Of a stretch of DNA of 64,000 nucleotides, positions 358-40,355 are shown piece by piece. The DNA comes from Candidula unifasciata. Its lineage: Eukaryota; Mollusca; Gastropoda; Stylommatophora; Geomitridae. The stretch lies in contig CAJHNH020000205.1 in assembly GCA_905116865.2 (NCBI GenBank), positions 244,230 to 308,229 of the forward strand, given 5' to 3'. Position numbers and translations under genes: made by a program. The notes beneath the pieces are model-generated. The model was not told where the DNA came from, made no database searches, and saw nothing but the letters and a program-made list of their open reading frames with translations. Positions within the stretch are counted from its first letter, which is position 1. Every line of letters starts with the position of its first letter.

Positions 358-472
358 TTATTTCACCGAATGCCCAGGCTGCGTCACAATGCTGCATATG
401 TTGAGCAGTACTTTTACACAAATTGCTATCAAAAGAATCATAGAAGAATTTCACGGAACCGAGAAGTAAAAG
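358..472 (+). CDS. Cassette exon 1
   Basis: 115 nt, 38 codons plus one base. The acceptor is ttgcttccacctcag and the donor is G|gtaagt. It opens with LFHRMPRLRHN and has an aromatic middle (VEQYFYTNC). The tail contains HRRISRNREVK and the split junction codon makes Gly with the constant exon. The plus-strand ORF in this frame extends upstream into intron, but the acceptor and the family motif fix the start here. It may not be the first cassette, because the window begins only 357 bases upstream. Confidence 0.9.
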
Positions 473-3022
473 GTAAGTTCTGTTATAGTACAGCTGTTAT
501 TTAGATTGCAGGCCAACTCAGGACTTTTCAGAGTTTGCGTCTTCGAATGATGTGATCCAAGTTAACTAGTGCATTTTTCCCCCTGGAATCTGACATGTTA
601 AAAATTTTTTTTTGATCTTGCTTGTTTTAAGAATAAATTAAAATAATAGCAGTTGCAGCATTTACTGAGGTAATACACAACTAAACATGTCAAGCTGTTA
701 ATGATTGTTAGCTGTTGACAGATAAAAGGGACATGTTAAGAGCAGTTAATGACGACTTATTTGTTTTCGCATAAGTTCAGCGACTATAAATCTGACATTG
801 TATTATAATGTAGTGTGAGAAAACGATGATGTATTATGTGGCCGAGGAATGTTTCTCTTGCAGATATTCATTTTGTTTTGAAGCATTGTTTTGATGTGCC
901 AACAGTTTAGCAACTAAACAGACTGCTCGCCATCAACCATCATACTTTTTTCAGTTGTCTTATCATTATACCATATACAAGTCTTCTTAGAGTCTCATTT
1001 TTGAGATTTTAACTTTTTGTTTAAAAATAGATCATGTATCTCTTCCAATACATGGTGTTTTGGTAGTTACTTACCGATATTTCTGACATGCTTACCAATT
1101 CACCTGTATAATATTTTTGCGGAAGTAAAGTTTTTGTTTTTGTTTTTTATTAAAACCAGGGTAAACAATGTGTTGAAGATATTAAGTAGGCTGTGATCAT
1201 TTATCATTTAGGAAGTAAAGATAAAATATGTAGCTTAACAATTTTAACTTTATAGAAGAATGGTTTTTAATGAATTTTTCTCTATGACTGGCTTAATTGG
1301 TTGAAAATTTATTTAATGAAAAGCCACGAGGACACTGGAATAATTGTTTATGGAAGGGCCCCTTCTCACACCAGTGATGCTTCAGGCATATGATGCTAGA
1401 CTCTTGTTTCCATAAACCAGTCAGCACTCAGTGGGCTGTGTGGTCAAAATCAGCTGGCCACTCTTACTTCCTAGGAATAATATATAAATAAATGGGCTAT
1501 TAGAAAATATTTATCTTAAAAAAAAAAAAATAATTCATTTTAGCACGTGTTGCAAATTAATTAAACTAGTTAAATTTTATATAAACCTAATCGATAACAA
1601 TTGTTACCACTGACCGGCCGCGCCAGCCTTACAAAAACGGGAATTCCCATTTGAGCTGTAAGGCCTTAAATATGGAGCTGGCCATGGTTGAAATGGCAAG
1701 CAGTAGATTCAATGTAGTTTACCTTTCAGTACTTAAATCATAAATATGATTGTGACAATAGTTGCAGACTTTTAAGTTTAATACATAAAAGGTCCAGTTT
1801 TGTGAAGGTGAAAGCTTCATAGACTGACTGATTGTTTAAACATAGTTATTGACCTTAGTGGTCATCAGACAATAGTATTTTTTTTATAAAAGAAGAAACG
1901 AAACCAGATTTTCTTGACAGCATTCAAATATAAGTTGCAGCGAAGACTAAACTGTCTGAATGACCGTGTTTAAGACAAGATAAAGTACATAGTTGAAACC
2001 AAATTTTGTTGTTAAAAAAAAGCCTTATTTGTTTTTGCTGTCTGTTATTGCTGATAACATAAGTGTGGATTTTATGTTCCAAAATTTACTTTATTTATCA
2101 TATTTTAAAGCCAACCCTTATGGTGGATTTATTTTTCTATATATGTATGCGCATGCACTTCCTGATGAAATTATTGTGTGCTGCTCCCACCCCCCCATAC
2201 ACAGAGAGAGAGAGAAAGAGAAACTGAAATTTTTGGCTTATCGTTTTCTTGTCTGCCTGATTCTTCCATCATGCTTCATAGGAGCTGCAGTGTCTAGACA
2301 TTTGCCTATCAGTCTGAAGTTTGTTTTGTTGGTTTGAATCTGCATTGAGGTAGATTTATTTTAACTGACCCTCTGCCCCAGTTATCTTGGGTTGTAGGAA
2401 ATGGTCAGGAACTTAAGACAGCTGGCAGGATGTCGGTGGCATCACCCTTTGAATGCCAGTTGGTCTGTACAAAATAATGGTTTAGCATCATATGCCTGTT
2501 ATGCCATTAGCGCCCCCACCCACAACCGATTTTTTAAAAATTAAAAACCCCACCACCTAAATAAATAATTATTGTCATTAATAAGGTTTTTCCCCCATAA
2601 ATTTTGACATCCATATAGAGCATTTAGATTGCAGAGTGGTGTTCATTGGGGTATTTCTTGACCCATATAAAGCATTTAGGTTGCAGAGTGGTGTTCATTG
2701 ACGTATATCTTGTTCTGCAATATATTGCCTGCTTCCACAAACATGATAGTGGTTACCTTTATTCTGCAGTATAGAACGTCTTTCAAAGCTTTCACCTCTG
2801 CTGGAATCTATTCCACATGTGCACCAATGATTTGCTGGTTGCAGAGCTCTCTGCTTGCTTCTCATTTATCTGAAAATCAGTGTTCTGGGCACCAAATGAT
2901 AAAGGGACAACAGTTTGGACAGTTTATAAATGACAGAATTGTTCATTCTGCCTGGTTTACTTGTGTGTTTTGTTGCTGTAAATTGTCAGAGAACTAATAT
3001 CGTGCATGTTCTGGACTCCCAG
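473..3022 (+). other. Intron between cassettes 1 and 2
   Basis: AT-rich non-coding sequence without a further cassette. It holds a degraded antisense SINE fragment near 1355-1465, a sense SINE fragment near 2340-2515, an AGAG tract near 2202-2222 and a two-copy direct repeat of about 62 bp at 2608-2712 (both copies carry gcagagtggtgttcattg). The reading frames at 1993-2337 and 2698-2997 show no splice context or family motif. Confidence 0.7.
2608..2712 (+). repeat. Two-copy intronic direct repeat (~62 bp)
   Basis: Two adjacent copies share the core catttagattgcagagtggt with few mismatches. They lie about 310 bases before cassette 2. No function is visible. Confidence 0.7.
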
Positions 3023-3146
3023 CTTCTTGCGAGGATGCCAGTCTTAGCCCATGATTTGATCAGATCCACTGAGATATTCTATAACAACTGTCGGCTAAAG
3101 ATGCACATGAGAAAATCTAGGTCTCAAATGTCCATGTTTCATATAA
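3023..3146 (+). CDS. Cassette exon 2
   Basis: 124 nt, 41 codons plus one base. It opens LLARMPVLAH and has EIFYNNCRLK in the middle and MRKSRSQ near the end. The donor is A|gtgagt, giving Ser at the junction. The final residues (MSMFHI) are hydrophobic rather than basic, so the tail is longer and less charged than the norm. A closer potential donor at 3121 (AG|gtctca) would leave phase 2 and is rejected. Confidence 0.85.
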
Positions 3147-4200
3147 GTGAGTTGTTCATTCAAGTTGTCATGAATTACATGAAATATGATTTAATTGTTG
3201 TGCCCAAGTAATATAATTATATACAGTCTGTGTAAATGTGCAAAGACTGATTGTGGAGTAGTACCCAGTATCTGGTTTCTCTTTCAAGGGCATTATGAAT
3301 CAAGATGTATGAGATTGTATTACATTTGAAACAAAGCATATTCGCGGCTGTCACTTACTTTGAGCTGTCACCAATTAAACATGTTTTAAATATTGTACTT
3401 GGGGTAAATGATCAAATGCAGCCTGTGTACGTATGTAAAGTCTAAGTTAATGTCAAGAGGAGCAACTCCATTGCACTATTACCTTTTATGTCTCTGCCTC
3501 TCTATGCAGAATAGCTAGCCGCCTGCAGAGAGCATCACACAAAGCACATACCCCATAACTCTGGTGATGATCTGCAGAAGAGCAGTGACCCCATGTCTTG
3601 CTTTTCTCTGAATCGCAGTCTAAACAGTGTATGAGAATTTCATTACAGTTGAAGCAAAGTAACAGTTGTGCCCCAATAATGTGACAACAGCAATTGTTTT
3701 GTTTGTTGGTGAAGTCTGTGGTCCAAATGTTTGGTTATATTTGTGCACATATTTGTCCTGTCTGTTGAACTTTCGAATCATAGTTTGTTTTCTTTATTTT
3801 CTTCTTGATATCAACTCCATTGCAGTCTCATTATCACTGTATCTAATCTTCTGTTGCTGTTTAGTACACATCAGTAGAAAATATAACTTAAGTTTAAATA
3901 GATTACTGTGTTTGACTTACTAATGTGCGAATTGCTATTCTATTTTATGTATGCAGTCCTTTCTGCCACAGTTTCAGTCTTCACTTTGACACTCTATGTC
4001 AGATTCTAGAGTTCTTACCCCACTATTTAAACAATTTTTTTTTCTATTTCGGTGGGAACTGTTTAGAAAAAGTTTTGCGAGAGAAATTCGTTACTTAGGA
4101 AGTGTAATTTTACTATTCTGATTTTGTTTCTGCTTGAGTCATTACATTTTTATATTCACATTTTGGGAGAGGAAAAAGGAGTCACATCATTTGATGTGAT

Positions 4201-4389: not shown

Positions 4390-4504
4390 CTTGTTCATCG
4401 AATGCCAGTTATTGCATACGACATGAAACGTGTTTCAGAAGTCCTGTATGCAAATACATTATCTAGACTAATTTATTGGAGGGCAAAGGGGCAGAAAAAG
4501 AGTG
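4390..4504 (+). CDS. Cassette exon 3
   Basis: 115 nt, 38 codons plus one base. The acceptor is tttgttgcag and the donor G|gtaggt. It begins LVHRMPVIAYDMKRVSEVL and continues with YANTLSRL and a tail rich in Lys/Arg (WRAKGQKKS). The segment N-x-LSRL is shared with cassettes 4 and 23, which marks these as one subfamily although 4 and 23 are 28 kb apart. Confidence 0.9.
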
Positions 4505-5463: not shown

Positions 5464-5572
5464 CTTGTCCGTCGAATGCCGCTTTTATACTTTGATAAAA
5501 CTAACGTGGCACAGAAATTATATCACAACAATCTGTCTAGGCTTGGCATGAAAAGGCTAAATATGAGACGCA
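5464..5572 (+). CDS. Cassette exon 4
   Basis: 109 nt, 36 codons plus one base. The acceptor is atcttcaactgcag and the donor A|gtaagt, so the junction codon is Ser. It reads LVRRMPLLYFDKTNVAQKLY, then HNNLSRLGMKRLNMRR. Although short, it is one of the cleanest family members. It contains no ATG-initiated long ORF, so a simple ORF scan would miss it. Confidence 0.93.
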
Positions 5573-9670: not shown

Positions 9671-9779
9671 CTGTTAAAGCGTTTACCTGTGCTCCGGAGC
9701 AGTGAGAAAAATGCACATTGGTACTTTTACAACAATGCAATGGAGAGAATTAAGAAACGTAGACAGCGGTTATGCATGC
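9671..9779 (+). CDS. Cassette exon 5
   Basis: 109 nt, 36 codons plus one base. It opens LLKRLPVLRSSEKN, continues HWYFYNNAMERIKKRRQRL, and the donor is C|gtaagt. The leftover C plus GT of the constant exon makes Arg, the only cassette with an Arg junction. The ATG within it is not a start codon. The acceptor position is supported by the duplicated flank. Confidence 0.92.
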
Positions 9780-10862: not shown

Positions 10863-11035
10863 AACAACCTTTTGTCAGTAGGTGTATTTTTTTTATTTTT
10901 TTTTCAAATGGAGTCTTATCTATAAAGCATTTTCCAGTATTTTTTTCTGCTCAAATGAGAAGGGGCTCTTTTCACACATCAGCTGTCACTCTTGACACTC
11001 ACCATGTTCATAAGTAATTTGCACAATGTTAACAG

Positions 11036-11147
11036 TTGCTCCATCGGTTGCCATTGCTTCGGATGGATATCAAGAGAACATCTAATTACCTGTGCAGCAG
11101 CTGCATGACCCGCCGAAGGGTTACCAATTTTTATGCCAGGATGAAAT
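11036..11147 (+). CDS. Cassette exon 6
   Basis: 112 nt, 37 codons plus one base. It begins LLHRLPLLRMDIKRTSNYL, then CSSCMTRRRVTNFYARMK. The donor is T|gtaagt, so the junction codon TGT is Cys, unique in the array. It has three cysteines in the middle (C-x2-C plus the junction), which may change the chemistry of this variant. The acceptor is aatgttaacag, with a weak pyrimidine tract. Confidence 0.9.
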
Positions 11148-11911: not shown

Positions 11912-12038
11912 CTTTTTCTGAGAATGCCATCCCTTCTCCTGAGACCGATTATGGCCGAGCAGTACTTTCTGAAGACCATTCATACCAAACTGGGTATGAG
12001 GAATTTACGTTTAAAGGCTGCCTCCACCTACAGCACAG
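11912..12038 (+). CDS. Cassette exon 7, with a GC donor
   Basis: 127 nt, 42 codons plus one base. It opens LFLRMPSLLLRPIMAEQYFL and continues THTK-like HTKLGMRNLRLKAAST. No GT lies at a position giving phase 1, but ACAG|gcaagt at 12034-12044 is a textbook GC-AG donor and leaves exactly phase 1. The acceptor is tgatttaatag. An ORF in another frame (11872-12207) overlaps it and is spurious. Confidence 0.85.
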
Positions 12039-12414
12039 GCAAGTGGTTTCTGTAGGTTCATTCTGTGTTAGATGTCAGCTGGAGTCTATCAAGTGCAGTC
12101 TGCTCAAGAACAAGGCAGCCGTACATATCAATGTCTCTTTTGGTTTTAGTTTTTTGCTTTTTCTTCTTTTCTGTTCTTTCCTTGTTTGTTTTGTTTTTTG
12201 TTTGTAGGATTTTTGGGAAAGGGTGTTGTGGAGTGAAGTTATAATAGTTAATGTAATGGTAGATAATCTATTCTTAGTGTGAAGTGCTAATGTCTTGAAA
12301 TATGGTTTGTAACTTTATGAGCTGACCAAACAACATTTCCCCAATAGTTTGTATTATCTATTCTCATAAAGGATTCTGGCAATCACTTACTAAAAACATT
12401 TTCTTCTTCTTCCT

Positions 12415-12655
12415 CTACTTCTTCTTCTTCTTCGTGTTCCCCAGCTGTAAACTCTGGTGGAAAGTTCTGGTTGTTCATCCACTTTTGGACTGCAGTCCTG
12501 TTTTACAGATCTGACTCATTTGTATGCAGACTGCTGGTTCCTTGCCTCTCAGGCAGATGCACTCCAACTTCGAAGCAAGCTCCCAATTAGCCGACTCTTA
12601 CGACATGCTTTTGGGTAGGCAGTGGTTCTATTCTTGTTTTCCCACACGGGAAAAA
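12415..12655 (+). repeat. Dispersed ~260-bp repeat, family D copy
   Basis: Begins in a CTT-rich tract and runs through cagctgtaaactctggtgg, ggcagatgcactccaacttc and ttttgggtaggcagtgg to a cacacggg end. At least ten copies in both orientations occur in the window. No terminal inverted repeat and no coding frame is visible; class unknown. Confidence 0.8.
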
Positions 12656-13620: not shown

Positions 13621-13917
13621 GTGAGGATCCCTGTAGGCAACCTATTTCTAGGGTGACCTCAGAGAGGCTTAGATAGGGCTTGACCAGATGAGCCCAGATA
13701 TTGTTGAGCACCAGATACGGTCCCACACACCTGTGTCCTGTGAAGGAGTGGAGTGCTTTTAGACAGTAAGCTTGTTTGACGGCAGTGAAATCTGTAAAGT
13801 TTAAAGGAACTGACATGACCTCCCCCACCACAGCACACTTGTATCCCTTCAGGGGTCTTAAGACTTTTTACTCAAAAGCTGCTAGAGAGTATACTGTATG
13901 TTAAAAATCATTTGCAG

Positions 13918-14020
13918 TTGTTATTTCGTATGCCATGTCTGCGCCGCCACTCAGCTCGTATTGCTAGGATGCTTCTGATAAATGCCCAGCAGCGCACTTG
14001 GGTTAGTAAAAAGAGATTGG
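13918..14020 (+). CDS. Cassette exon 8
   Basis: 103 nt, 34 codons plus one base. The acceptor is aaaaatcatttgcag and the donor G|gtaagt. It opens LLFRMPCLRRHSARIARMLL and ends INAQQRTWVSKKRL. Arginine density is high already in the first half. No ATG-initiated ORF of reportable size covers it. Confidence 0.92.
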
Positions 14021-14649: not shown

Positions 14650-14752
14650 ATGTTTTTCCGACTGCCAAATTTAAAATGTTACCCGAAGAGACTTATTGCA
14701 TACTTGTCAGACTCTACAAGAAAGCGAAGGTGGTATCAGAGGAACATGATCA
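14650..14752 (+). CDS. Cassette exon 9
   Basis: 103 nt, 34 codons plus one base. It reads MFFRLPNLKCYPKRLIAYL, then SDSTRKRRWYQRNMI. The donor is A|gtaagt, giving Ser. It is the only member whose first residue is Met. The overlapping 192-residue ORF at 14178-14756 is in another frame and has no splice or motif support. Confidence 0.9.
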
Positions 14753-15429: not shown

Positions 15430-15541
15430 CTGTGTGTCCGAATTCCCGTACTGGGACATCACAAGGAGCGCTTGGCTGAGGTATTTAATGTCACTGTTCA
15501 CCGCAGGATATCCTGGCGAAGGCGCTGTGGTGTGTTTGAAG
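15430..15541 (+). CDS. Cassette exon 10
   Basis: 112 nt, 37 codons plus one base. The acceptor is gtgtaaactgatag and the donor G|gtaagg. It reads LCVRIPVLGHHKERLAEVF, then a strongly basic VHRRISWRRRCG and a short VFE end. Ile replaces Met at the position before Pro. Confidence 0.9.
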
Positions 15542-16066: not shown

Positions 16067-16166
16067 CTTCTCACTAGAATGCCCATTTTGTCCCATGAAC
16101 CAGAGAGGACTGCTCTGTTGCTTAACATTCGGGGGTCGCAGAATCTGCGCAGAAGGTCTCAGAAAG
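16067..16166 (+). CDS. Cassette exon 11
   Basis: 100 nt, 33 codons plus one base, among the shortest. It reads LLTRMPILSHEPERTALLL and then NIRGSQNLRRRSQK. The donor is G|gtttgt, which departs from the usual gtaagt and is probably weak. The acceptor is atttcctacacag. Confidence 0.88.
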
Positions 16167-16380
16167 GTTTGTCCTCATCACATGGATGTTACAGAATAGT
16201 GCGGTGCCTAGAATAATTCTTTATCTGTTTGTGCAATACCGTATTGTTTGTGAGCCAGGTTAAATTATGGCAACAGTTTTTCACCACAGCATTCACACTA
16301 CACATTTGACATGTAAACAGCATTTTTTCGGGTGTGCATTTTTATTGTAAGCTGTTTGTGTATTTGTGCTGCTGTTTTAG

Positions 16381-16492
16381 CTGGCACGACGTATCCCGCT
16401 GCTATCATTTAGTCTCAAACGGTTGGGCAGTTATTTTATAGAGCTGGCGAAAGCTAAGAGGTATAGGCTAAGGAAGACCAACTTTTCTTTGG
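16381..16492 (+). CDS. Cassette exon 12
   Basis: 112 nt, 37 codons plus one base. The acceptor tgctgctgttttag is strong and the donor is G|gtgagt. It reads LARRIPLLSFSLKRLGSYF, then IELAKAKRYRLRKTNFSL. Only 214 bases separate it from cassette 11, one of the shortest spacings in the array. Confidence 0.92.
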
Positions 16493-18580: not shown

Positions 18581-18680
18581 CTGTTTTTACGCCTCCCGTT
18601 GCTGCAAGGTAATTTACGCCGTTCTGAATTGCTCTTCATGCAAACTGTGAGGGTACGGAGAGCTTTCTGGAAACGACAAG
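18581..18680 (+). CDS. Cassette exon 13
   Basis: 100 nt, 33 codons plus one base. The acceptor is gggactacttggtag and the donor G|gtaggt. It reads LFLRLPLLQGNLRRSELLF, then MQTVRVRRAFWKRQ. A gtaattt inside the exon (18621) would break the phase and is not a donor. No ATG-initiated ORF covers it. Confidence 0.92.
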
Positions 18681-21269: not shown

Positions 21270-21372
21270 TTGATAAGACGAATGCCTTTGTTGAAGTATC
21301 AGATACTTCGAGTATCTCACCTGTTGTGTTACAATGCCGTATCTCGGAGGCATGAGGCCAAAAAGAGGAAAG
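21270..21372 (+). CDS. Cassette exon 14
   Basis: 103 nt, 34 codons plus one base. The acceptor is gtttgtcacatctag and the donor G|gtaggc. It reads LIRRMPLLKYQILRVSHLL, then CYNAVSRRHEAKKRK. It is 28/34 identical to cassette 15 by my count, and the acceptor region (catctagttgataagacg versus cgtctagttaataagacg) is also alike, indicating a recent duplication. Confidence 0.93.
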
Positions 21373-24189
21373 GTAGGCCTTAATTAAGCTTGTCAGATGT
21401 TGTAATGGCTTTGGTCATGATATGAGAAGAGCAGAATGGCTGAAGAACATTGTAACAGTTGTACTAATTGAGTGTATTCTTCTTCATTGTTTCTCTTTAA
21501 AATGGCTGTTGACATTTTGTGTTGTGGTTTAGAGCTAGACTGTGACATCTGTGTCTTTCAGTTCAATACTTATGGTTCAAGCAAACTCCTGATTACCAAT
21601 CTTGTATGACATGCTCATTAAAGGGGCACTGGGCCTCGTGTAAATACACAACAGCTGCACTTGGTACCCACAGGAGAAGAAAAGGGGTTTTAGATGTCTA
21701 GATTACTTTTAGTAAGAAATGGTTAGACAGGGCAGGTGACCCCTCTCGACAACCTCCTCCTGGTAAAGAGCTCCCACCAAATGTAATTCTATCTAACCAT
21801 CAAGTTAAACAGGTAAGAACTAATACGCTTGAAATTTAACAAACAATGTAGTTTAAATCCCATATATTTGATTTATTACACTAGCAATCATTTAGATGAC
21901 ATTTGTCATTTCAAATATATTTGATTAAACAGTGATGGAATTGTGGTAATGAGGTGCTTCAGCTAGAGAATGAGCACCTGAAATTAGAGTGATGTTATGA
22001 TGATGATGATAAGTTTACGAACAAAATTTTAACATAACTTGGTGGTAATGCAAGATAAAACCTCTGACAGCCGTGAGGCACTGTCAACTTTTTCACCACT
22101 TCTCAGCTGCTTCCCAGCTTGCCGATCTCCCACACAATGTAGGTTCGTGCACATGGACCCTCTGTTTCTGCTGTCAGAACTGGTTGGTCTTTACCCTGAC
22201 AGGGGCTGTAATAATTGAAACTTTCCAGCAAATTGCCTAACAAGACTCACACAGCTAGAATGACTGAGGGTCTAACTTGTTGGCCTGCTGGCAGCATAAT
22301 GAAGTCGATTTAGGATGCCTAACAGTATATGTACCCTAATACATCTGCCAGACTAACTCCTCCGTTTTTCTTTTATCTAACCTGTCCCACAGAAGTGAAT
22401 TTAAGCCACCCCTCTGAGGTACCTTGCAGATACAATGATCTATCACTATGCCTGTCAGTCAATTCTTGAGTGCCCCTACTCTGATCAAACATTTCTAAGT
22501 TGGCAAATCTAGTTTCTGCCAGTGTCACTGACTGGTGTGAAAAGCTGGTAGTCTAGCCACTTATGTAACTTTTATGACACTCTGGTGGCTTTCCCCAGGT
22601 AGAGAGACTAGCTAGATTAAGTAATGTTATGTAATATTAAACAAAACCTCATTGCTTTGTCTGGAACAGTTTGTACTTTTTGGGCTTAGTTCATAGTAAA
22701 TATAATTTTTTGTCTCTCTATTGAACAGAAGAAATTATTAAACAGTAACTTCTGAAAACACTGAGGTCGTTTCATCACAGGAAGACAGAGAATAAGATGG
22801 TATATTAAGCACACACTGAAGAGAAGTGGACACGCACCAAAATCACTGAACATGCAAAATTATGAATTGTGAAAAAGAAAAAAAAAGGATGTCCAGTGTT
22901 GATGAAAGCAGAGGAAGCAGCAGAGTTGCTGTGCTTTTCTCTTTATCACAAGGCATGACAGTCGATATAAGATGTAAGTTACGGGCTAATTCGGATTTAT
23001 TTTCATCTCCAATAAATTCAAGAGAACCACGGTAGTAGCACACCTGCCAGCTGCATGTCGTAGGCAAATGCATCAGTGTGGATTTTGAAAGCAGATCCAG
23101 TCTTCTTGAAATAGAGACCAGAAAACTGTCTGGGAAGTAAAGTTGGACAGGTACTTCACAGTATGACAATGCCAGCTGTAAACAGACTAAACACTGGTTT
23201 CCTATTTGACTACGCTAGTTTTAGTATGATCGCACTGCCAATTTTCTTGGCCGAGGTCCTCAAGGACTTATTTTGTATCTGTCATAATAGTAGTCTGGGA
23301 AATGTTGTTTAGTAGTAATCTCTTTGTTGCTTTATAGATTGTCTAGATTTTGCCTTTTGGTTGTATCAGTACTTTCTTCTTGGTACTGTGACTGTCTCTA
23401 GTATTATTGGTAACTCTGTGTGTATTGTCCTGCTCCTCCTGTTCTAACATCATATGCTGACCGAAAGATCCTGTGGGTAATTATCATCAAGAAAATAGAA
23501 AGTGACTGTTCTGTGATGTTTGCTTTTTTGCCCATCCTTGTCCTATATTACTTTTACTTTTGCGACAGGTTTACAGTAGTATGTTTTTATTTCATGAAGA
23601 GGTTGTTTTGTGAGTGGTTAAATTCACCAGTGAGGTTCATTGCTACTTTGCATGTTTCTGCAGAGATGCTTTGATATTTGTTACTAGTATGTCGGAACTC
23701 AACCGACACACCGTTCTTGATACTAAACACATAAAGCTTGGCCATATATTTAGCATCTGGGAAAATATTCTTAAATTTAAAGTTTCTGCAGGCTTTCATT
23801 GCAACATACTACATAGTAATACACTGCAGAAATGCTTTTTTTTTTTTTTTAAATTCCTGCAACACTGTATCTTTCGTAATTACCTGTAACATCTGTGTTG
23901 TTCAGCAGTATTGATAATAGTTTCCAATTTAAAGGAGAAATAACAATATGATTGTGGTTATGACTATTTGAATTTTCTTTTGCTAGGTAGCTACAGTTAA
24001 TTTTGTTTCATCCACATCACAGGCGCCATAGGTTGTTCTCATTCTTATTGTGTTCAGATTCATGTAACTAAAACAGTTCAGATGACTAAAACAGGATTGA
24101 TTATTTGCACTCAGCACCAAAAAACTAAAGTGCCTATTGTTAGCTAAATACATGCCCCAGAAATCATTTGTTTTAATTCCTGCGTCTAG
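21373..24189 (+). other. Intron between cassettes 14 and 15
   Basis: No cassette or other gene seen. The minus-strand frame at 22843-23169 and the plus-strand frames at 23420-23889 have no recognisable domain and no splice context. The sequence is mostly unique AT-rich DNA with T-rich tracts (about 23836). Confidence 0.6.
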
Positions 24190-24292
24190 TTAATAAGACG
24201 GATGCCTTTATTGAAGTATCATTTGCTCCGAGTTGTGCACCTTATGTGTTACAATGCCAAATCTAGAAGACACGAAGCCAAGAAAAGGACAG
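24190..24292 (+). CDS. Cassette exon 15
   Basis: 103 nt, 34 codons plus one base. It reads LIRRMPLLKYHLLRVVHLM, then CYNAKSRRHEAKKRT. The donor is G|gtacgc, weaker than consensus. It is the sister of cassette 14. Six residues differ, two of them adding or removing charge in the basic half. Confidence 0.93.
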
Positions 24293-25858: not shown

Positions 25859-25961
25859 CTTTTTAGGCGTATGCCACTACTGAAGTATAATAGTTCGTAC
25901 TTCAGTCAAGTGTTCTTATCAAGGGCCGCATGGAGAAACAGCTACAACCGCAGGCACAAAG
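25859..25961 (+). CDS. Cassette exon 16
   Basis: 103 nt, 34 codons plus one base. The acceptor is acatggaaacag and the donor G|gtgagg. It reads LFRRMPLLKYNSSYFSQVF, then LSRAAWRNSYNRRHK. It shares Y-x-S-Q-(V/I)-F and R-N-x-Y-N-R with cassette 18, so these two form a subfamily with cassette 17 between them. Confidence 0.93.
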
Positions 25962-26300
25962 GTGAGGCAGGTAGGTTTCACACCAGAAATGAATTTTAAG
26001 TATCTTTTAATAAGATATTCAGTTAGCAGATGGACCAACTATACAGCAAGCATACATTATCTGTGTGTTTGCTTGTCTGTTGCACCTTGCCACAATTTGA
26101 TGTTGTTTATATGTCTAAGGTAGGATATTTTGTCATGTAGTGCGCTTCAAAAAGGTAGGCAATATTGTAAGTGTATTTAAATGTTGTTAAAAGGGGAAGT
26201 AATCTGTCTAAAAATACCCATCTCTGGAAACCAGAAGCCTGTGGTTCCCCGTCTGCTTAGACCCTGGGACTTATTTTAATTTCAAAGGTCGTCCATGGAC

Positions 26301-26500: not shown

Positions 26501-27161
26501 ACTGTGTGTGTTTGTGTGTGCACATGTGCGCGCATGATGTACCTGTTGTGTCATTATATGTTATGTCACATAGGGCTCAAAATCATTCCTCCATTCGCTT
26601 CAGTCTGTGCTGTCCCTTTGTTATCATAGAAGGAATCCAGTTCACTACCTTTGGCCTCCCTTATCAACATTCATTTTGAGGTTGCTTTTTGATATGACAT
26701 CATAGACTTCTTCAATTTGTTCCTCTGACCGTTAAATAGAAAAAGTTGTCATAACCCATGTATTTATTATCAAGCAACTGGCCTTATGCTTTTAGTATGT
26801 GCCATCAAGTTAGACGTTTCTGTTGTCCAGGCTACTATTTAAACTACATAAGACCAAAATATATATTTGCTTAGTTTTTCAATTCAATCAAAATAAAGGT
26901 TGACTGTGTAGACAGAAGTTTAAAAAAAAAGAAGTGAGGGCTAAAAAGACATAAGGATGAAAAACTCATTTGTAATGTTATTATGCAGAATTAGTTTTTG
27001 TTTTTTTTAAATTGTCCCCATAGTGGATACTGTCTCTAGTATGTATCAGTGGGCTGTAGTTTTGCTGACGTTTGTTTCACCAGTGTCGATGTGACAATGC
27101 CATGCAGTAGCATCATGGTATCGGTGTCATGCTTATCACTGGCGATTCGCCATTTTCTCAG

Positions 27162-27294
27162 CTCTTCAGACGCCTGTCTGTGCTGACGTATGACTGTCTG
27201 CGTACTGCCGAATATTTTAATAAAACTGTACAGGACAGGAAAGCCAACACAGTTCGCAGAAACGCTGCTGTGAGCAGTGTCCTTGGTGTTCAAG
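27162..27294 (+). CDS. Cassette exon 17 (longest; Ser replaces the motif proline)
   Basis: 133 nt, 44 codons plus one base. The acceptor is cgccattttctcag and the donor G|gtgggt. It reads LFRRLSVLTYDCLRTAEYF, then NKTVQDRKANTVRRNAAV and SSVLGVQ. Ser takes the place of the otherwise near-invariant Pro, and the tail extends past the basic stretch with neutral residues. It is in phase with all others, so it is probably used. No ATG-started ORF covers it. Confidence 0.85.
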
Positions 27295-27331: not shown

Positions 27332-27446
27332 CTGTTGCGACGTATTCCCATAATGCGCTTTGACACCAAGTACTGCAGCCAGATATTTAGTGCTCGGGTG
27401 GCATTTCGCAACCATTACAACAGACAAAGGATGTGCAGAGGATCAG
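27332..27446 (+). CDS. Cassette exon 18
   Basis: 115 nt, 38 codons plus one base. The acceptor is tgtttccctcacag and the donor G|gtaaag. It reads LLRRIPIMRFDTKYCSQIF, then SARVAFRNHYNRQR and MCRGS. Closest relative is cassette 16. Confidence 0.93.
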
Positions 27447-29337
27447 GTAAAGTGTTCCGTCTATTTCAGTTTATTCTCATCGGATCCGCTGCAGTTGTAG
27501 CTTTTGAGCAGTGGTTGCTCAGGGTACTGAGATAATAAACAGACACACTCCTTAACTGCTTGCGCACATCTTTCCTAAATGTGTTTGTGTGTTGTCATAG
27601 CCTTTGCTTCCTCATTTGCCCTGAAAAGTATGTGAATTGGGTGTCATTTACAGTTTTCTGTTCCTATCAGTCCACAGAATAAACATTGTCAGAACCAGGT
27701 TTAGTCTTTCTTTAATAAGACATCTGTTTTGCTCCAGTTTTTTTCTTCAAATATTGCTAGGGTACCAGTCCATTCAGCCAATTATTTTCATTGTCAGGTA
27801 ATTTTGGTGTCTGAATTCTATACCCATGAAACCTGCTGCTTTTCTGTTTTCTTCCAGAAGACTGAATATGTGACCTATCACCACTTTGGTTGCAAATCCA
27901 AGTCTTTCGGTTGCCACAATTTTTTTTTTTTTTTTTTTTTTAACATTTGCACTTAAAAAAAAAAGGGAGGTGGATATTGTTTGAAGGCTTTCAAAACAGT
28001 TTCAATCATATATAACTGTACTCCATAGTTGTGAAAATCACGGAGCTTTTATGTTCTCACCTTGTGGTTTAAACCTCAGAGAAGGCTGTGGAAGTTCATA
28101 AACATGCTGTCAGTGTACATTTATTCAGTGCACTGACTGAATGGCACTATTCCATCAGTGTGATAGATTCCTTTCAGCATTTACATTTTCTTGTCATATG
28201 TCTTACTGTAAGTTTAGTCTTGTCCTTTATGGTTCTCTTTCTCCCCCCCCCCCCCCCCCCACCAAATCGTGTTCACTTTCCGGGTTTTTTTGTGTGCCCA
28301 TCTTCGTTTAGCAAATATACTGTATGTTGAGGCATGTGGATATCTCATAACACAAGATTCCACTATCTTGGAAGCCATGTTGGGGTGTTAAACTATGCTG
28401 GAACTGTTCACCTGGCTGGAAAATGACCTGATCAGTGGGTGGGTATGGGTTTTGAACCTTGCACCATAAGTTAATTAGAAACTAAGTTGCACACTTTTTC
28501 TAGCACACAGTCATGCACTTCATTTGTAGTGGAAACAGTGAAAAATGGCCAACTTGAAATTTACTTGACCTAACCTAATAGATAGGTTACATTGCTAACA
28601 TGTTGTCTGTGGAGTGTAAAAACTGACTTTTCCTTGTCATGAGAACTCTTTAATGGATACTGTTGTGTATATAGTAATTTTTATATTGTGCTGTTCATTA
28701 AAAAAAAAAAAAACTTGAGGGCTCACAGCTGCATTCTCCATTCCATTCTTCTTTGAAGATATAGATCTTGAGTGTTTAGGATTTTAATTACTCAGTCTAT
28801 AAGTATTTGAATCTCCTGCTGGAAATCTCGGTCAGGATGTAGTGCCCAGTGACACCAGTTCTGTCTTGGTTGTGTACTCTTCCTGAGTATTGTTCTTGTT
28901 TGGTCTCATCAGGTTTGACTTGCTGTTTTGTTGTTGTTGCAATCTGGTCATAATTACAGAGTCATAACTTGATTCTTGTAGATAGCATATTGCTCTTAGA
29001 GCATTCTTTATGTCAGCCTGGTCCATTGCTTATCCGTCCATCGCATTAGCCCTGTCCACACGTCTATTAATACTAGCCTGTTGGTAAAATACACACTTTA
29101 AAAAATATATTCAAGGATGGTTTTGCACAGATGAACAAACTCCTCAAAAATAATTAATAAATGAGAAATGATGAATGAGTGTTCAGTTTCATACCCCAAC
29201 AAATATATTACCTGGTAAAAGTGCAGTTTTCTTTAGGCTAGCGTTGTGACAGCTGTTCTAAATCAGGAGGGCTCCGATGACTGAAAATTTAAGGCATCTG
29301 GTAGTTTGTATGTACCATTCTGTTTTTATATGTGTAG
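27447..29337 (+). other. Intron between cassettes 18 and 19
   Basis: No cassette found. It holds a T18-20 tract near 27920, a C-rich tract near 28243-28261 and an A-rich tract near 28700. A minus-strand frame at 28832-29026 is unsupported. Confidence 0.6.
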
Positions 29338-29443
29338 TTACTGAGTCGTCTACCTGTTCTGAGGTATGATCTTGTACGTACAACCGCAACCATGGGTAAC
29401 AGGGCTTATGAGAGACGTTACAAGGCCCGTATAAGATTCAAAG
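29338..29443 (+). CDS. Cassette exon 19
   Basis: 106 nt, 35 codons plus one base. The acceptor is ttatatgtgtag and the donor G|gtaagt. It reads LLSRLPVLRYDLVRTTATM, then GNRAYERRYKARIRFK. With cassettes 20 and 21 it shares the same length and the ending R-R/K-Y-K-x-R-(V/I)-R-F, a clear local subfamily. Confidence 0.94.
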
Positions 29444-30652
29444 GTAAGTTGTAAACAAATGAGATATGTCATGAGTTCATTCATGCATGCACATTTTCAG
29501 GAACACTGCAAAATTGATACATTTGCACTAGCCAACGATGAGTTTGCTGTGAGGATCTTTGTGTATGTAGTGCAGATTGTTTGTTGTTTAAGACCTGGTA
29601 GAAACACTTTCTCTTTAGTCTGCTGTTTCTACTGTTATATTTTAGCTCAGTCATATTTGAATTTGAAGATAATTATTACATCTGTGTTAGTCATTGGAAT
29701 TATAGACAGTATTTTAACGCCACCTTAAATATCTCGATCCTGAATTACTGAAGTCTTTTATTTCTTCGAACCATCGTGGCTATTGTTTAAATATTTCTGT
29801 TAAAATGGGTGGTAAAAGCAATGCAAAACACTAACAACAGCAAATCAGGTGACTGGTTGAAAAAAAAAAAAAACTGCATCAGCCAAATTGTAAACAAGGA
29901 AGTTGCATTTTGAATTATTTACACATCAGCCAACCATAGATTATTGAGATTTGTGGAAGAGATCGCGATAAACCGGTTTAGTGCAGAATTGTGCAGACAA
30001 AAGGACATGCTCTTCTCCGTGCGTTTACTTTGGTGAAACAGAACGTTTTTTAATGTAGTCGATTTTGTTTTTGATTATGAAGGATTCATTTACTTGTTTC
30101 ATTTCAATCAATTCTTACTGTGGTATGCACCTAACGAGATACAGCGAAATATCTTCTTTTGTCGTCTCACTTGTACCAGTTTGTAGCCCAGTGTCATGGT
30201 TTTCTGTATTTATAGTGATAACAATTCTATGTTTCTTGAGTAGTAGCAATCAAATACACCAGTGCTGGCTTCATTGGCCCATCACTTTTCAGGGCCAGAA
30301 AAAACTCTGACCTGGTTGGTGTCTTGTCTCCTTCCAGGCGAGCCAGTGCCCAGTTAGCCTGAAACCTCGCGGCTTAAGTTTTCCTGAGGGCACCATGAAG
30401 CTAAATATTCCAGGCAATTAGTTGTGCAATCTATTGTTTGTGTCTTCTTTGTTCAAATTCACAGTGGGAAAACATTGCTTTGATTGATTAGAATGTTAAA
30501 TTAATGTTTCCCTAAGAAATATTGATGGTTTCCCAAACAAAAAATATTGTAGAAGTCACAGTTTGTAAATCAGAAGGGTTCTGTGTGTGGTTGATCATGT
30601 CATTATTATTTGTTGGTGTCAATTATATGTCATTCCGTTTTGTAAAATACAG

Positions 30653-30758
30653 CTAGTGAGACGCCTTCCTCTGTTGAATTATAATATTAAACGCACTGAA
30701 TTAATAATGAGCCACAGGGCCAGAGACAAACGCTATAAAGAACGTGTCAGATTTAAAG
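30653..30758 (+). CDS. Cassette exon 20
   Basis: 106 nt, 35 codons plus one base. It reads LVRRLPLLNYNIKRTELIM, then SHRARDKRYKERVRFK. The donor is G|gtaagt and the acceptor tgtaaaatacag. By my count it is identical to cassette 21 at 24 of 35 positions. Confidence 0.94.
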
Positions 30759-32132
30759 GTAAGTCTTAGATATAATGTTTATTTGGTTTTTGCAGATGTG
30801 GTTGACTTAAAATAAATTTATCATTTGTCTAGTTACGTTCTCTGTCCAGCTGTTTGTGTGTTTGTCATATGGTTATAATTGGATGTTCTGTAAAAGGAGG
30901 TGAATTGTGAATAATTATTCCACTCTCTTTAAAATAGAACACAATAAATAAGATTACCAACATTTATTCTATAATTTCCCAACCGACTGATAACCAAGGT
31001 TTTTTTTTGTAAATTTCTCTTTCTGTAAGTTATCGTAATGCATACATTTACCAGTTTATACGATTTTTTTCTTGACAGTAAGGACCTGTTTAACTTCAAT
31101 AATTGAAAAGCTGGTTTATTCTCATTAATGCTGTTTATGTCACTCGATACACTTTTATGATTACAAGCTGATGTTGTTGTTGCATCTACATGTCTCACTA
31201 GTTTAAATTTATACTTTTGCACATTTATTCAGTTCTGTGGCTTAGGACATCTAGTTTTGATAAGCAGTTGTGGGGTATTCTTTTCCTAGGCTTTGTTTGA
31301 TTGTACTCAGTCTCTACCTATGAAGACAGCAGGCTTGTGTCTCTCTTTGTCTGGTTCCTATCACTGGAGCTGACGGACATGGAAGACCCTATTTGTTGCT
31401 AAGCTATCGTCTGCACCTCTTGGTTACAAGGCCATGTAACATTTCATGATAGAGACATAGAGGAGGATTGTGGTGGTTTTGTTGGAAATTTTTTTCTGAG
31501 ATCTCTGTGTAGACTAGTTTTCTTTTTAAACCTGGCGGACGATGGTACATTGTTCTGCGGCCCACTTGACGGCTAAACAGACATGAAAACATTTGGTTAC
31601 AGCAGTTAATTTGTTACATCTGATGTCACAAAGTTAGTTTTTAGCTAATGCGAGATCTGATGCTGCTGAGAGGTTTAAAAACAAAATCCGATATATATAT
31701 AGGCTGGATTGTTGTTTCCTTGTATAGATTTTTTTGTCGGCATGCCTTAGAAAGACTTTTCATACAAATAATAGGTAGTCCTTAAGGTGTTAATCCTACA
31801 GACTGGAAGAGGGAAAAAACCACATGGACAATACATCATTACACAATTGGACAATACATCTTGGCGGCCCACCCAGACTTTTCCATGGCCCACCACTATG
31901 TCCCGGCCCAACTAGTTGAATAACACTAGCTTAGACCACATAATCACTAAGACCTTACCGTAGTTAATCACAAAACAGTGTAAAGTTAGTTCCAGCAGTT
32001 TTTTAAGGTAGGGGGGGGGGGGTGTCTAAACATGAAAATTTATAGACAGCATTTGTGAACCTTGAGGGCTCTGTAGTCAAGTTATGTGTCAGATAGGTTT
32101 GAAGTGTAGGTGCTATGTTTTGATACAAACAG

Positions 32133-32238
32133 ATAGTCAATCGCCTCCCTCTGTTGAGTTATGATATTGAACGAACTGCATTAATCATGAGTCACCGGGC
32201 TAAAGAGAGGCGTTATAAAGCCCGTGTAAGATTTCAAG
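32133..32238 (+). CDS. Cassette exon 21
   Basis: 106 nt, 35 codons plus one base. The acceptor gatacaaacag lacks a good pyrimidine tract; the donor is G|gtaagt. It reads IVNRLPLLSYDIERTALIM, then SHRAKERRYKARVRFQ. Ile replaces Leu at the first residue. Confidence 0.94.
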
Positions 32239-32517: not shown

Positions 32518-32943
32518 GCTCTGTGAAGTCTGTGGTGTAATGCATGACTTCCACAGTTCCATACAGCTTGGTTACTTCTAGGCTTCTTGTAACTTTGATA
32601 TATTTTCCTGTTAGTGTTTCTTTTCAGCAGTTTTCAGAACTTTACTGAGTTTTCTTCATTGAAACGGATAAGTTTGAACTAATATGTGGCTGTATCTTGT
32701 ATTGTTTATGACTTTTTTGAACTCATTAACTGGGGCCTTCTGATGGTTGGAACATTTTAATTTCATTATGGTGAAAATGTGAAGTGTCTGTTGAAAACAG
32801 TATTTTCAAATACCGCAGCATTGATGGCCAGGGTTCAGTGTATGTATTTCTGTTGGTTTGTATTCACACCAGCACCAAAAATCTAAATGGTCTGTATGCT
32901 TTAAAAAATATGTCTTATTGATTGTTGGGGTGCAATTTGGCAG

Positions 32944-33055
32944 TTGTTTTCCCGTGTACCTGTCCTTCGATATGATGTTGCCAGTGTGGCAGAGATATTT
33001 AGAGCTCGCAGTTCCAGACGTGTTTCCTGGCTGAGGACGAATGCACAGAGAACAG
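32944..33055 (+). CDS. Cassette exon 22
   Basis: 112 nt, 37 codons plus one base. The acceptor is gggtgcaatttggcag and the donor G|gtaata, below consensus. It reads LFSRVPVLRYDVASVAEIF, then RARSSRRVSWLRTNAQRT. Val replaces Met/Leu before the proline. Confidence 0.92.
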
Positions 33056-33265
33056 GTAATAATACACAGATGGGTTCTTGTCTGCTGATTGTGAATGGCA
33101 TAACTAATCACCAAAGTAGTGGGAACAGTTCAGCTTCTTGCTCCTAGTTTTTGTCTTCTATGTTGCTGCTGTGTCAGTCAGTTTCACTCACAGGCCGAAT
33201 CACTGTGGCTCCCACAACGAATGCATTGAATAGCTTTAGTCATATTACTTCTGTTATAACACCAG

Positions 33266-33374
33266 TTATTGAGGAGGATTCCTCTTCTGGCAAGTGATGT
33301 GGTCAAGGCTGAAATGATTTTCTATACAAATTCATTGTCCAGATTGGCAATGCGAAGGAAGAAGACAAAGAAGA
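33266..33374 (+). CDS. Cassette exon 23 (last in the array)
   Basis: 109 nt, 36 codons plus one base. The acceptor is gttataacaccag and the donor A|gtaagt (Ser junction). It reads LLRRIPLLASDVVKAEMIF, then YTNSLSRLAMRRKKTKK. The YTN/N-x-LSRL core matches cassettes 3 and 4. Only 210 bases separate it from cassette 22. The next coding exon is almost 5 kb downstream. Confidence 0.93.
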
Positions 33375-37004: not shown

Positions 37005-37315
37005 ATTACACAATTTATTGCTTGTCATATTTTGCGGTATCTTGTCAGGTGCATACTACAGTAACAATTACATAAATGAATCAAATAAGTGAATCCTTTA
37101 TATCACCTGCGCCTGGAACTGAATTCAGAAAGAGATGGTTCTGTCTTTACGGCTGCCCTGGTAAAAACAAGCAGTAACATTTGTTCGTTGTTGAAATTGT
37201 TGTTCACTTATAAAGGATTCACTTATTTGCTTCATTTTTTATAATTGTTACTTTAGTATGCACCTGACGAGATACAATGAAATATGCCAGGCAATAAATT
37301 GTGCAATCTATTATT
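37005..37315. mobile_element. Inverted-repeat (foldback/MITE-like) element
   Basis: The arms, about 90 bp each (roughly 37008-37100 and 37205-37312), are near-complementary: gattacacaatttattgctt at the left reappears inverted as aggcaataaattgtgcaatc at the right, and gtgaatccttta as taaaggattcac. A second, partial copy matching the right arm, with extra sequence inside, lies at about 30060-30475. No coding sequence. Confidence 0.75.
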
Positions 37316-38292: not shown

Positions 38293-38451
38293 GTCAGTTC
38301 AAATCCCCTGGACGAGGTATACGAGGAGCTCAGTTTGGCCGGCAGGGATTCCATGGGGGACAGCAAGGCTTCCAATACCCTCCCGGAAGTTATCCAGGAA
38401 CTCCGATGCATCCAGGAATGGAAAGAAGGATGTCATCAGCTGGTTATGAAG
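38293..38451 (+). CDS. First downstream constant exon
   Basis: 159 nt, entering and leaving in phase 1. The acceptor is catatgatatag and the donor G|gttagt. After the split codon it encodes QFKSPGRGIRGAQFGRQGFH, then a Gln/Gly/Pro-rich stretch (QQGFQYPPGSYPG) and MERRMSSAGYE. Low-complexity RG and Q composition suggests a disordered linker. All 23 cassettes can join it in frame. A frame in another register (38335-38517) is a shadow. Confidence 0.9.
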
Positions 38452-38650
38452 GTTAGTTCAGACTTTGATACATTCAGAGATCATCAGTTTTCAGCTGGTG
38501 TTTTGTGGAGCCCTTAAGCTGTGCACTTTGATACATTCAGAGATCATCAGTTTTCACTGGCGCTTCATGGAGCCCTTAAGCTGTGCACTTTGATACATTC
38601 AGAGATCACCAGTTTTCACTGGCGCTTCATGGAGCCCTTAAGCTGTACCT
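38445..38650 (+). repeat. Three-copy ~64-bp tandem repeat covering the donor flank
   Basis: Copies share gatacattcagagatcatcag (one with c for t), then gttttcactggcgcttcatg and gagcccttaagctgt. The first copy starts right at the donor of the constant exon. Confidence 0.85.
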
Positions 38651-39707
38651 GCTTTTCTCAAGAGCTCTGTGGCCACTCCAGGAAGATAAATACAATTTGA
38701 AAGAAATTAAAGATTGAGAAACAGAAAGTAGAATCTGCTGCCACTCGCTCCAAAATTATTGACAAAGTTTGACACTATAATGTCACCTGCCCTTCCTGCA
38801 ACTAAATAAGGGGCCCCACCAAAGAATTTGCTTTTAAGAAGGGCTCAGCTGAACCAAAAAAAAAAAAAAAGTTAAAAACCAGTGCACAAGATTTATATTT
38901 GCTGTTAGAGGGCATGTCATCTACTTAAGAAAATTTCGGACTGACTCTTTTTATGCCAGTGGTATATTGGGCATGTGATGCTAGACTGTTTATAGACCAG
39001 TCAGCCTTTAATGAACAATGTGGTCAACATCATGTCAGCCACCTTTACTTCCTAGGACTTTACCTGCTACTCACTTTAGACTGGGTCAGTCTGCAAGTCA
39101 ACATTATTAACACACAAAAGGTCAGACTTTATGCAGATTCCAATCCAAGACCTTTGTTTCAGCAGACACACGTCTAGCTGCTTCGACAATACATAGACGC
39201 TGTTTTATCAAACCCAAAGAACCATTGCAATACTCTCTCTTCTGTTCTATGCTGTAACTTCTGCTTCTCATTCATCTAAAGACAAATGCAGTGTGCCCAT
39301 TTACAACATGGCTGTGATATTTGGGCCTTTTGGCAGACACATCCAACTTCTGCAGGCCTGGGTTAGGCTTCCCGGGTTGGTCTTTTGGGTGTTTTATATA
39401 GATGAATACAGTCATATAACAGCAATACATAGAGTTTTTCTGTTCACTTCTACATTCGCCTGTAAAGGGGCAGTTGGTACATTGTGTTGTTGTTTACAAC
39501 TAGGCTGTGATATCTGGGTATTTCAACCTAACACATCAGATTTTTAGAAAACTATTTAATTTATTTTTATGATATACACATTAGAGGAAGTGATTACACC
39601 CCCCCCCCCCTTCTCCTCCCCATAAAAAAGGTCCTTAGCATCCACACAGGGAATTAAACAAACAGACGTGAAATATTTCAGCTGGCTATAAGTTTGATGA
39701 GGAAGCT

Positions 39708-39935
39708 GCCATGGTGTCACAGCTAGATGCTCGTCTGCAGATCTGAAGGTTGTAGGTTCAAATCCGAACAGTGCTGGAGTGTTTTCAAAAATGATCTTGG
39801 TTTCCAGGTTGACCCAGCCTTACAAAGGCGCCAGGTAAGTCATGGAAAGTCAAGGTGTCAGGCATGGTGCTGAGCACATCACCCATCATGCTCCGTTTGG
39901 TCTATAAATTATTGGTTTTGCCCTATGTGCCAAAA
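39708..39935 (+). repeat. tRNA-derived SINE, family B
   Basis: The head carries a good B-box (aggttcaaatccg), then ccaggttgacccagccttac, a ggcatggtgctgagcacatc block and attattggttttgccctatg. It lies 120 bases before the terminal coding exon, in the sense orientation. The in-frame ORF starting at 39855 begins inside it and is intronic up to 40056. Confidence 0.85.
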
Positions 39936-40056
39936 ACACATGTCAGCGTGGAAACTAATCGTTTAAATTATATAAGTTTGATGCATAATCTTGACTCTGG
40001 TAGTGTCAGCATTGAGAAATCTCACACATGCATTTCTTCTTATCTTTCTGCTACAG

Positions 40057-40355
40057 GTGACAGTTATGGTCAGGGCACTGGAGAAGAGAGCTATGATTAC
40101 CAGCAGCTTGCTTCTGATGACAGCCATGACACACAGCAGTCCTCCAACGATCTGAGTCAGACACAGTCAGGATTCCACGGTGCATTTGGCAATGGGAGTG
40201 GCCAGTCTTCAGAGCAGAACCAGTCTGGGGAAGGACAGGGTCAAGGGGGAGACAGTCCACCAGACATTAAATATGAGGTCACACCAATGCCTTTTATGAA
40301 AACCAATGATTTTGAATTGATAGAGATAGACCCTGATGAGGAAGATGACATATAG
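40057..40355 (+). CDS. Terminal coding exon: acidic, Q/S-rich tail with SUMO-type motifs
   Basis: The acceptor is ctttctgctacag. Two bases complete the split Gly codon, then 98 codons to TAG at 40353-40355. The sequence is Ser/Gln/Gly/Asp-rich (DSYGQGTGEESYDYQQL; SGQSSEQNQSGEGQGQGG). It ends with DIKYEV, fitting the sumoylation consensus hydrophobic-K-x-E, and FELIEIDPDEEDDI, a hydrophobic core followed by acids as in SUMO-interaction motifs. Such tails are common in nuclear regulators. The protein itself was not recognised, and start exons lie outside the window. Confidence 0.9.

Follow-up and report, generated by a model that had tools for sequence, protein, structure and literature searches.

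A tandem array of 27 cassette exons in the snail Candidula unifasciata, probably spliced one at a time by competition for an intronic docking site

How does a gene with a long row of homologous exons place only one of them in each transcript? This question is raised by an uncharacterised gene of the snail Candidula unifasciata that lies partly in a stretch of 64,000 nucleotides (nt), hereafter the window, on the + strand of contig CAJHNH020000205.1 (C205:244230-308229) of the 1.34 Gb genome assembly (genome paper PMC8496239). Within the window, the gene carries 23 homologous cassette exons on the + strand (358-33374), and further cassettes lie upstream. We propose, with a probability of roughly 80%, that 27 tandem exons are spliced one at a time through docking-site competition, giving each predicted protein a different basic end. 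Selector elements upstream of the cassettes would compete by base pairing for one docking site before the array, and the winning cassette would be joined between a constant exon, here termed exon D, and a shared tail. Two constant exons would begin a likely nucleic-acid-binding domain, which the chosen cassette would complete with its own basic end, and most double inclusions would be unproductive through the reading frame. Below, the gene in the window is locus A, a paralogous gene on the minus strand of contig C4176 is locus B, cassettes are named by their first position, and labels of the type P0001-P0122 denote database proteins retrieved in the analysis.

The 23 cassettes of the window measure 100-133 nt (33-44 codons). 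A pattern consisting of AG, then L-x-x-R-x-P/S and an open frame yielded 21 of them, the acceptor AG thus being demanded by the pattern, and a profile of these 21 adds 14650 and 32133, both with AG, and nothing else convincing on either strand. All 23 start in phase 0 and end at a phase 1 donor, which is GT in 22 and GC in 11912 (at 12039); strong donors in other phases occur in two cassettes, both past a stop codon. When each cassette was left out of the profile in turn, 21 were recovered at E < 0.01 (14650 reached 0.036 and 11912 0.44), and every cassette scored above the best non-cassette match in its own search. The scores of three (11912, 14650, and 18581) stay at or below 16.0, the best score of the full model in 10 shuffles of the first 40.4 kilobases (kb). 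Pattern, profile, and leave-one-out searches thus confirm the preliminary description of this DNA, which had recognised 23 homologous 100-133-nt cassettes with an AG acceptor, a donor, and a basic segment (every cassette has a net charge of +5 to +9). The L-x-x-R-x-P opening it gave them holds for Arg at position 4 (23/23) and for Pro at position 6 (22/23, with Ser in 27162); Leu at position 1 is present in only 21 cassettes, with Met in 14650 and Ile in 32133. As regards steric exclusion, cassettes 21 and 22 of the gene are separated by 37 nt, and the other 21 gaps in the window span 210-4,098 nt.

That the array may run on upstream of the window was borne out by extending the contig, which gave four more cassettes (C205:238584, 240057, 243266, and 243706; window -5645, -4172, -963, and -523). 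All 27 cassettes of the gene have an AG acceptor and a phase 1 donor (26 GT, 1 GC); for the four upstream cassettes, as for the 31 paralogous ones described below, donors were sought in phase 1 only. The donor of C205:243266 is poor, and a weak, possibly dead cassette copy lies at C205:231336. No upstream constant exons were found within the window. On the contig, the start exon begins at C205:192308, an exon ending GDPS lies near 198.4 kb, exon C occupies C205:221088-221161, and exon D (C205:223391-223471) reads RNMREAHAMYPFTGKRDKELFDKALAE followed by gtaagt. In both loci exon D ends ALAE before gt in phase 0 and therefore fits the cassettes, which require entry in phase 0. The two constant exons and the stop codon reported after the array stand, their boundaries now set as in Table 1, and the 151 residues of the tail are 100% identical to a partial C. 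unifasciata protein. A 33-nt minisatellite of 45 copies (window 40338-41823), with a unit that resembles the stop-codon region, overlaps at its start the final codons and the stop of the gene.

The arrangement of phases allows one cassette per full-length frame. Joining two cassettes produces a stop inside the second in 239/253 pairs from the window and 329/351 pairs of all 27; the 14 exceptions among the window pairs have 11912 or 14650 as the second cassette and reach a stop in the next exon. The database proteins, mostly gene models, agree, as all 15 with a profile match among the 132 scanned hold one cassette each. Three of the 17 tail-bearing proteins lack a profile match, P0001 and P0007 starting at the tail and P0008 inside the cassette, and the cassette of P0013 was missed by the profile. 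Four Biomphalaria proteins (P0002, P0003, P0004, and P0019) combine the common tail with four different cassettes. Judging from these sequences, one cassette per transcript is likely in Candidula. The phases and the early stops would also suit exclusivity arising from the reading frame and the decay of double-cassette transcripts alone, with the docking-like element serving some other role. Yet decay alone would presumably waste many transcripts of a 27-exon array, and, as detailed below, a single conserved intronic element pairs much more strongly than controls with the upstream flanks in both paralogous loci, and not with the downstream flanks; we consider this explanation unlikely.

The second gene copy, locus B (C4176:200001-293101), comprises 5' exons, 31 cassettes, and a tail, and matches all parts of P0023. 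Thirty of its cassettes score at least 8 bits, with AG in 30/30; the 31st (236994) was added by eye through its likeness to P0013 at 2.1 bits, its donor being taken as the first phase 1 GT, and cassette 235140 had its donor assigned manually. Candidate phase 1 donors are present in 31/31 (30 GT, 1 GC). The locus B tail is 84-87% identical to Bradybaena P0023, whereas the tail in the window shares 83-85% of its residues with P0022 and 65-73% with P0023. The gene duplication therefore probably predates the split between the Candidula and Bradybaena lineages. Between the 27 and 31 cassettes of the two loci there are 12 reciprocal best pairs, which largely keep their order (rho 0.88, p = 1.5e-4) and show pooled proportions of nonsynonymous and synonymous differences of 0.36 vs. 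0.80 in ungapped alignments, by which pair 358 is misaligned. The sole GC donors of locus A and locus B fall in the same pair. In an ungapped comparison of 15 foreign cassettes (P0005 and P0008 left out) with the 58 of both loci, Biomphalaria P0019 matches a locus B cassette at 31/33 residues, P0013 and P0023 reach 29/33, and P0022 27/33; six others lie at 17-22, and P0004, P0010, P0021, P0024, and P0039 at only 6-16. This conservation across snail families bears on the view that the array is mostly a graveyard of duplicated exons of which one or few are used. The divergence of 11912 and 14650 and the possibly dead copy upstream would fit such decay, but all 27 cassettes have open frames with usable splice sites (that of 243266 being the poor donor), and the ratio of nonsynonymous to synonymous substitution rates (dN/dS) is 0.07-0.32 in four of five close cassette pairs, the fifth being saturated. 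Moreover, the NCBI entries of the Biomphalaria, Physella, and Aplysia orthologues each represent a cluster of near-identical proteins, with 43, 49, and 33 members, respectively (which are not cassette counts), making the graveyard view the least probable of those considered here.

If splicing selects a single cassette, elements guiding the choice may be recognisable in the introns. Four motifs shared by the upstream flanks, TTTGTTTCACCACAG, AGCACCA, GGGCTCT, and CACCACAGCA, were found before the upstream sequence was in hand, the last with a motif score of 55.8 vs. at most 44.5 in 12 control sets. Motif models of 10 and 14 nt beat random introns, and a 20-nt model was no better than random introns. 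A search for a docking site within the window (33.4-38.3 kb and 1-330) found none: for the upstream flanks z reached -3.1 at best, with a null median of -2.9, and for the downstream flanks -4.2, beyond the 5% point of the null (-4.0) and short of its 1% point (-4.4). An alignment of locus A introns with those of locus B, after masking of the cassettes, revealed in the intron before the array 81 aligned positions that are 89% identical and have the core AAAGAGCCCTTTTGATTTTGGTGCTGTGGTGAAACAA. This candidate docking element is the strongest match between the loci in that intron, its core occurs once in each locus span searched, and its reverse complement includes all four motifs. In locus B, CACCACAG precedes 5/31 cassettes vs. 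0.36 expected.

We further compared the pairing of cassette flanks (-150 to -15) with a 46-nt docking site against 400 control stretches. Upstream flanks pair more strongly than controls in both loci. In locus A their mean is -27.3 kcal/mol and that of the controls -21.6 kcal/mol (p = 1e-7); in locus B the two means are -27.6 and -21.3 kcal/mol (p = 1.7e-9). Downstream flanks show no excess pairing with this site (p = 0.88 in locus A and 0.28 in locus B). The locus A test shares its flanks with motif discovery, whereas locus B is independent of it. None of 200 shuffled docking sites matched the real excess in either locus, and among 30-nt windows placed every 15 nt along the intron, the docking site holds ranks 1, 2, and 4 of 682 in locus B and ranks 2 and 3 of 1,006 in locus A. 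Individually, 7/27 cassettes in locus A and 10/31 in locus B reach p ≤ 0.01, and 14/27 and 19/31 reach p ≤ 0.1. The core GGTGCTGTGGTG is paired in 20-26 of the 27 and 23-28 of the 31 best duplexes, so that competition among the selectors for this core would be expected. Taking the flanks together, computation thus finds the features of a Dscam exon 6-type cluster: a conserved, single site before the array that is complementary to elements upstream of the cassettes. By analogy, the pairing may act in the cell as it does in Dscam exon 6. The mutually exclusive use originally suggested for these exons therefore gains support from the frame arithmetic, the 15 one-cassette proteins, and a docking-like element with pairing flanks in two loci.

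The gene had been described as unrecognised, which does not hold, since NCBI already lists uncharacterised many-isoform orthologues (one with isoforms to X43), some of them misnamed ILF3, glutenin, or bindin (P0003, P0004, P0008, and P0026). Orthologues occur in Biomphalaria, Bulinus, Physella, Lymnaea, Bradybaena, Aplysia, Elysia, and Plakobranchus. LOC106053932 (Biomphalaria), LOC131934887 (Physella), and LOC101860137 (Aplysia), annotated only as uncharacterised, are the same gene by their N-terminus, single cassette, and kind of tail. The seven full-length orthologues (P0019-P0025) consist of an N-terminus of ~350-365 residues ending ALAE, one cassette, [G/S]QFKSPG, and an acidic tail. P0025, a protein of 545 residues, is encoded on a contig of 2,047 bases despite the 4.9 kb intron between cassettes and tail in the Candidula window, so this contig presumably derives from spliced RNA or is a processed copy. 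ILF3 is marked by its DZF and double-stranded-RNA-binding domains; the database name ILF3 on P0003 and P0004 is not supported, as these Pfam families were not found in P0003, P0013-P0019, P0022, and P0024.

What the cassette contributes to the protein can be approached from structure predictions. No significant domain emerged for the proteins of this gene from Pfam, NCBIfam, or PDB searches by sequence and by fold, and P0019, P0022, and P0024 have no Pfam family at E 0.01. A ZNF592-like finger in 1/23 cassettes (0.00075) was taken as chance. Two structure predictions show mostly disorder, with a mean predicted local distance difference test score (pLDDT) of 52 and 57. They concur that exons C and D are helical and that the cassette forms a helix end, a turn, and a long basic helix, with a block pLDDT of 83-94 except for the last cassette residues. 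Hydrophobic or small residues predominate at cassette positions 15, 18, 19, and 23, residues differ widely at positions 21, 24, 25, 28, and 29, and position 26 is Lys or Arg in 22/23. The domain completed by the cassette likely binds nucleic acid, and on these models the cassette may represent a swapped contact helix.

Sister genes offer a view of how the array may have arisen. In Babylonia LOC143293577 (P0090-P0122), the 31 listed isoforms share their first 339 residues, ending ADPS, and then diverge; C2H2-like patterns are present in 29 of these 31 and FLYWCH in one. P0039 has an N-terminus 66-69% identical to that of Babylonia, joined to an FTGK domain and one cassette-like end. The N-terminus of a sister gene also lies at C205:96286-96918, ~96 kb upstream of the start of the Candidula gene, with 44% identity to P0022. 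Because the sister genes share the N-terminal domain and carry switched C-termini, the array may have grown within one alternative C-terminus of a lola-like gene. The lola-like system mod(mdg4) likewise joins a BTB common part to alternative C-terminal exons. This layout of a common N-terminus with many C-termini would also be expected if cassettes and tail were brought together through trans-splicing or the use of separate promoters, which is the case for part of lola or mod(mdg4). In Candidula, however, the 5' exons, 27 cassettes, and tail share one contig and one strand and follow in order, none of the cassettes is a plain first exon since all have an acceptor, and a docking-like element precedes the array. 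We regard such an origin of the transcripts as very unlikely.

Several observations weigh against competitive splicing of single cassettes and the protein function proposed for it. The evidence of exon use consists of genomic sequence and mostly gene-model proteins. Two longer, less identical matches between the loci, located inside the arrays, beat the E-values of the docking element and may be repeats or real. TTCAC (p = 0.38) and TTTCACC (1/31, p = 0.39) are not enriched in the locus B flanks, 13/27 cassettes in locus A and 12/31 in locus B show no pairing at p ≤ 0.1, and one unrelated locus A window ranks above the docking site. Among the double pairs, 22/351 lack a stop in the second cassette. 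Transcripts without a cassette, named in the preliminary description as a sign against exclusive use, have a counterpart in P0015, a Biomphalaria model (RefSeq isoform X43); a skip of the cassette explains all of its final 104 residues and its stop (longest run of 4 in 2,000 shuffles). By eye, P0017 is also a cassette-less model, P0013 lacks the tail after its cassette, as would result from retention of the next intron, and the Bulinus model P0005 seems to join parts of two cassettes. A skip form in Candidula would shift the frame, yet it ends in the last exon with an 85-residue tail and should therefore escape decay. The structure models have low overall confidence (predicted template modelling scores of 0.28 and 0.25), and no fold or Pfam match backs nucleic-acid binding.

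Table 1. Cassettes, constant exons, and candidate selector elements of the gene, with positions in the window
Feature	Position	Strand	Remarks
Cassette exon 5 of 27	358..472	+	splice sites, leave-one-out profile
Cassette exon 6	3023..3146	+	splice sites, leave-one-out profile
Cassette exon 7	4390..4504	+	reciprocal best match in paralogous locus, 27/33 residues
Cassette exon 8	5464..5572	+	paralogue pair 19/33
Cassette exon 9	9671..9779	+	splice sites, leave-one-out profile
Cassette exon 10	11036..11147	+	splice sites, leave-one-out profile
Cassette exon 11	11912..12038	+	GC donor, paralogue likewise GC; weak leave-one-out
Cassette exon 12	13918..14020	+	splice sites, leave-one-out profile
Cassette exon 13	14650..14752	+	Met replaces Leu; found by profile; E 0.036
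Cassette exon 14	15430..15541	+	splice sites, leave-one-out profile
Cassette exon 15	16067..16166	+	splice sites, leave-one-out profile
Cassette exon 16	16381..16492	+	paralogue pair 20/33
Cassette exon 17	18581..18680	+	splice sites, leave-one-out profile
Cassette exon 18	21270..21372	+	dN/dS 0.07 vs. 24190
Cassette exon 19	24190..24292	+	splice sites, leave-one-out profile
Cassette exon 20	25859..25970	+	likely orthologue in Bradybaena P0022, 28/37 residues
Cassette exon 21	27162..27294	+	Ser for Pro
Cassette exon 22	27332..27446	+	starts 37 nt past cassette 21
Cassette exon 23	29338..29443	+	splice sites, leave-one-out profile
Cassette exon 24	30653..30758	+	splice sites, leave-one-out profile
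Cassette exon 25	32133..32238	+	Ile for Leu; found by profile
Cassette exon 26	32944..33055	+	likely orthologues in Elysia P0006/P0009, 22/37 and 23/37 residues
Cassette exon 27, last of the array	33266..33374	+	splice sites, leave-one-out profile
Constant exon after array	38293..38451	+	entered in phase 1
Last constant exon and stop	40057..40355	+	tail with DIKYE, end ELIEIDPDEEDDI; exact match to P0001
Selector candidate for cassette 358	227..285	+	p 0.040
Selector candidate for cassette 11036	10912..10974	+	p 0.033
Selector candidate for cassette 13918 (CACCACAGCA)	13825..13866	+	p 0.003
Selector candidate for cassette 16381 (TTTTTCACCACAGCA)	16245..16291	+	p 0.003; predicted duplex extends further 3'
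Selector candidate for cassette 24190 (CAGCACCAAAAA)	24107..24142	+	p 0.040
Selector candidate for cassette 27162 (TTTGTTTCACCA)	27068..27142	+	p 0.003
Selector candidate for cassette 29338 (ATCAGGAGGGCTC)	29242..29284	+	p 0.003
Selector candidate for cassette 30653	30546..30589	+	p 0.003
Selector candidate for cassette 32133 (GGGCTCT)	32038..32079	+	p 0.015
Selector candidate for cassette 32944 (CAGCACCAAAAATC)	32855..32901	+	0/400 controls equally strong
Selector candidate for cassette 33266	33176..33212	+	p 0.003

Other elements of the window include a reverse-transcriptase open frame (58351-60132, + strand; PF00078, E 2.6e-24), which is like a long interspersed nuclear element by domain position only, and an interspersed repeat family with matches of ~43-192 nt at 12424, 13407, 18115, 43772, 52547, and 62981, both within the gene and beyond it. 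Nothing was found with Rfam at gathering scores or in tRNA scans.

Among the matches listed in an open-access paper library (20 of 462 in one search), judged by title and the start of the abstract, we found no paper on this gene or on large mollusc exon clusters. The insect Dscam1 exon 6 cluster has 48 exons with a docking site upstream (PMC6071210, PMC3364881), and the D. melanogaster Dscam clusters have 48, 33, and 12 members, the next largest cluster having 8 (PMC6071210). The snail gene resembles Dscam1 exon 6 in its large tandem homologous array, the docking-like element before it, the selector-like elements upstream of the cassettes, and the single variant expected per messenger RNA. It differs in its mollusc host, in a frame that also bars most double inclusions, and in encoding an unrelated protein, no immunoglobulin or fibronectin domain being found among the Pfam results for P0019, P0022, and P0024. 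Drosophila lola has 20 isoforms with a BTB common part (PMC1947980). Like lola and mod(mdg4), sister gene LOC143293577 has a common N-terminus and alternative C-termini, and the gene in the window is a variant of this layout. Unlike in those genes, no Pfam BTB domain was found in P0013-P0018, P0019, P0022, and P0024, and the gene in the window varies in an internal cassette that precedes a common tail. Muscle Mhc, whose exon clusters are also reported from molluscs (PMC3912159), shares the occurrence of mutually exclusive exons in gastropods, but its clusters are smaller (5 and 3 in D. melanogaster, PMC6071210) and it encodes a motor protein.

In a bolder version of competitive docking-site splicing, which we hold tentatively and at slightly less than even odds, a snail regulator would swap the DNA-contacting helix of an undescribed fold, with 27 binding specificities and 31 more from its duplicate, amounting to a Dscam-scale code in a transcription factor that arose independently in molluscs. 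Among the D. melanogaster cluster sizes taken from PMC6071210, none exceeds 27 or 31 members except the two Dscam clusters with 48 and 33. If the proposed mechanism is true, arrays of 27 and 31 members with a docking-like site in a mollusc would mean that such splicing logic arose outside insects, and that docking-type splicing can diversify gene control, as the protein is apparently a nuclear regulator and not a surface receptor. The two diverged copies in this one genome, together with the Biomphalaria and Aplysia orthologues, make docking-selector rules testable. The Candidula gene alone could yield dozens of versions of a predicted nucleic-acid-binding protein, and the findings also suggest that gastropods have a family of lola-like genes whose N-terminal domain is of another kind.

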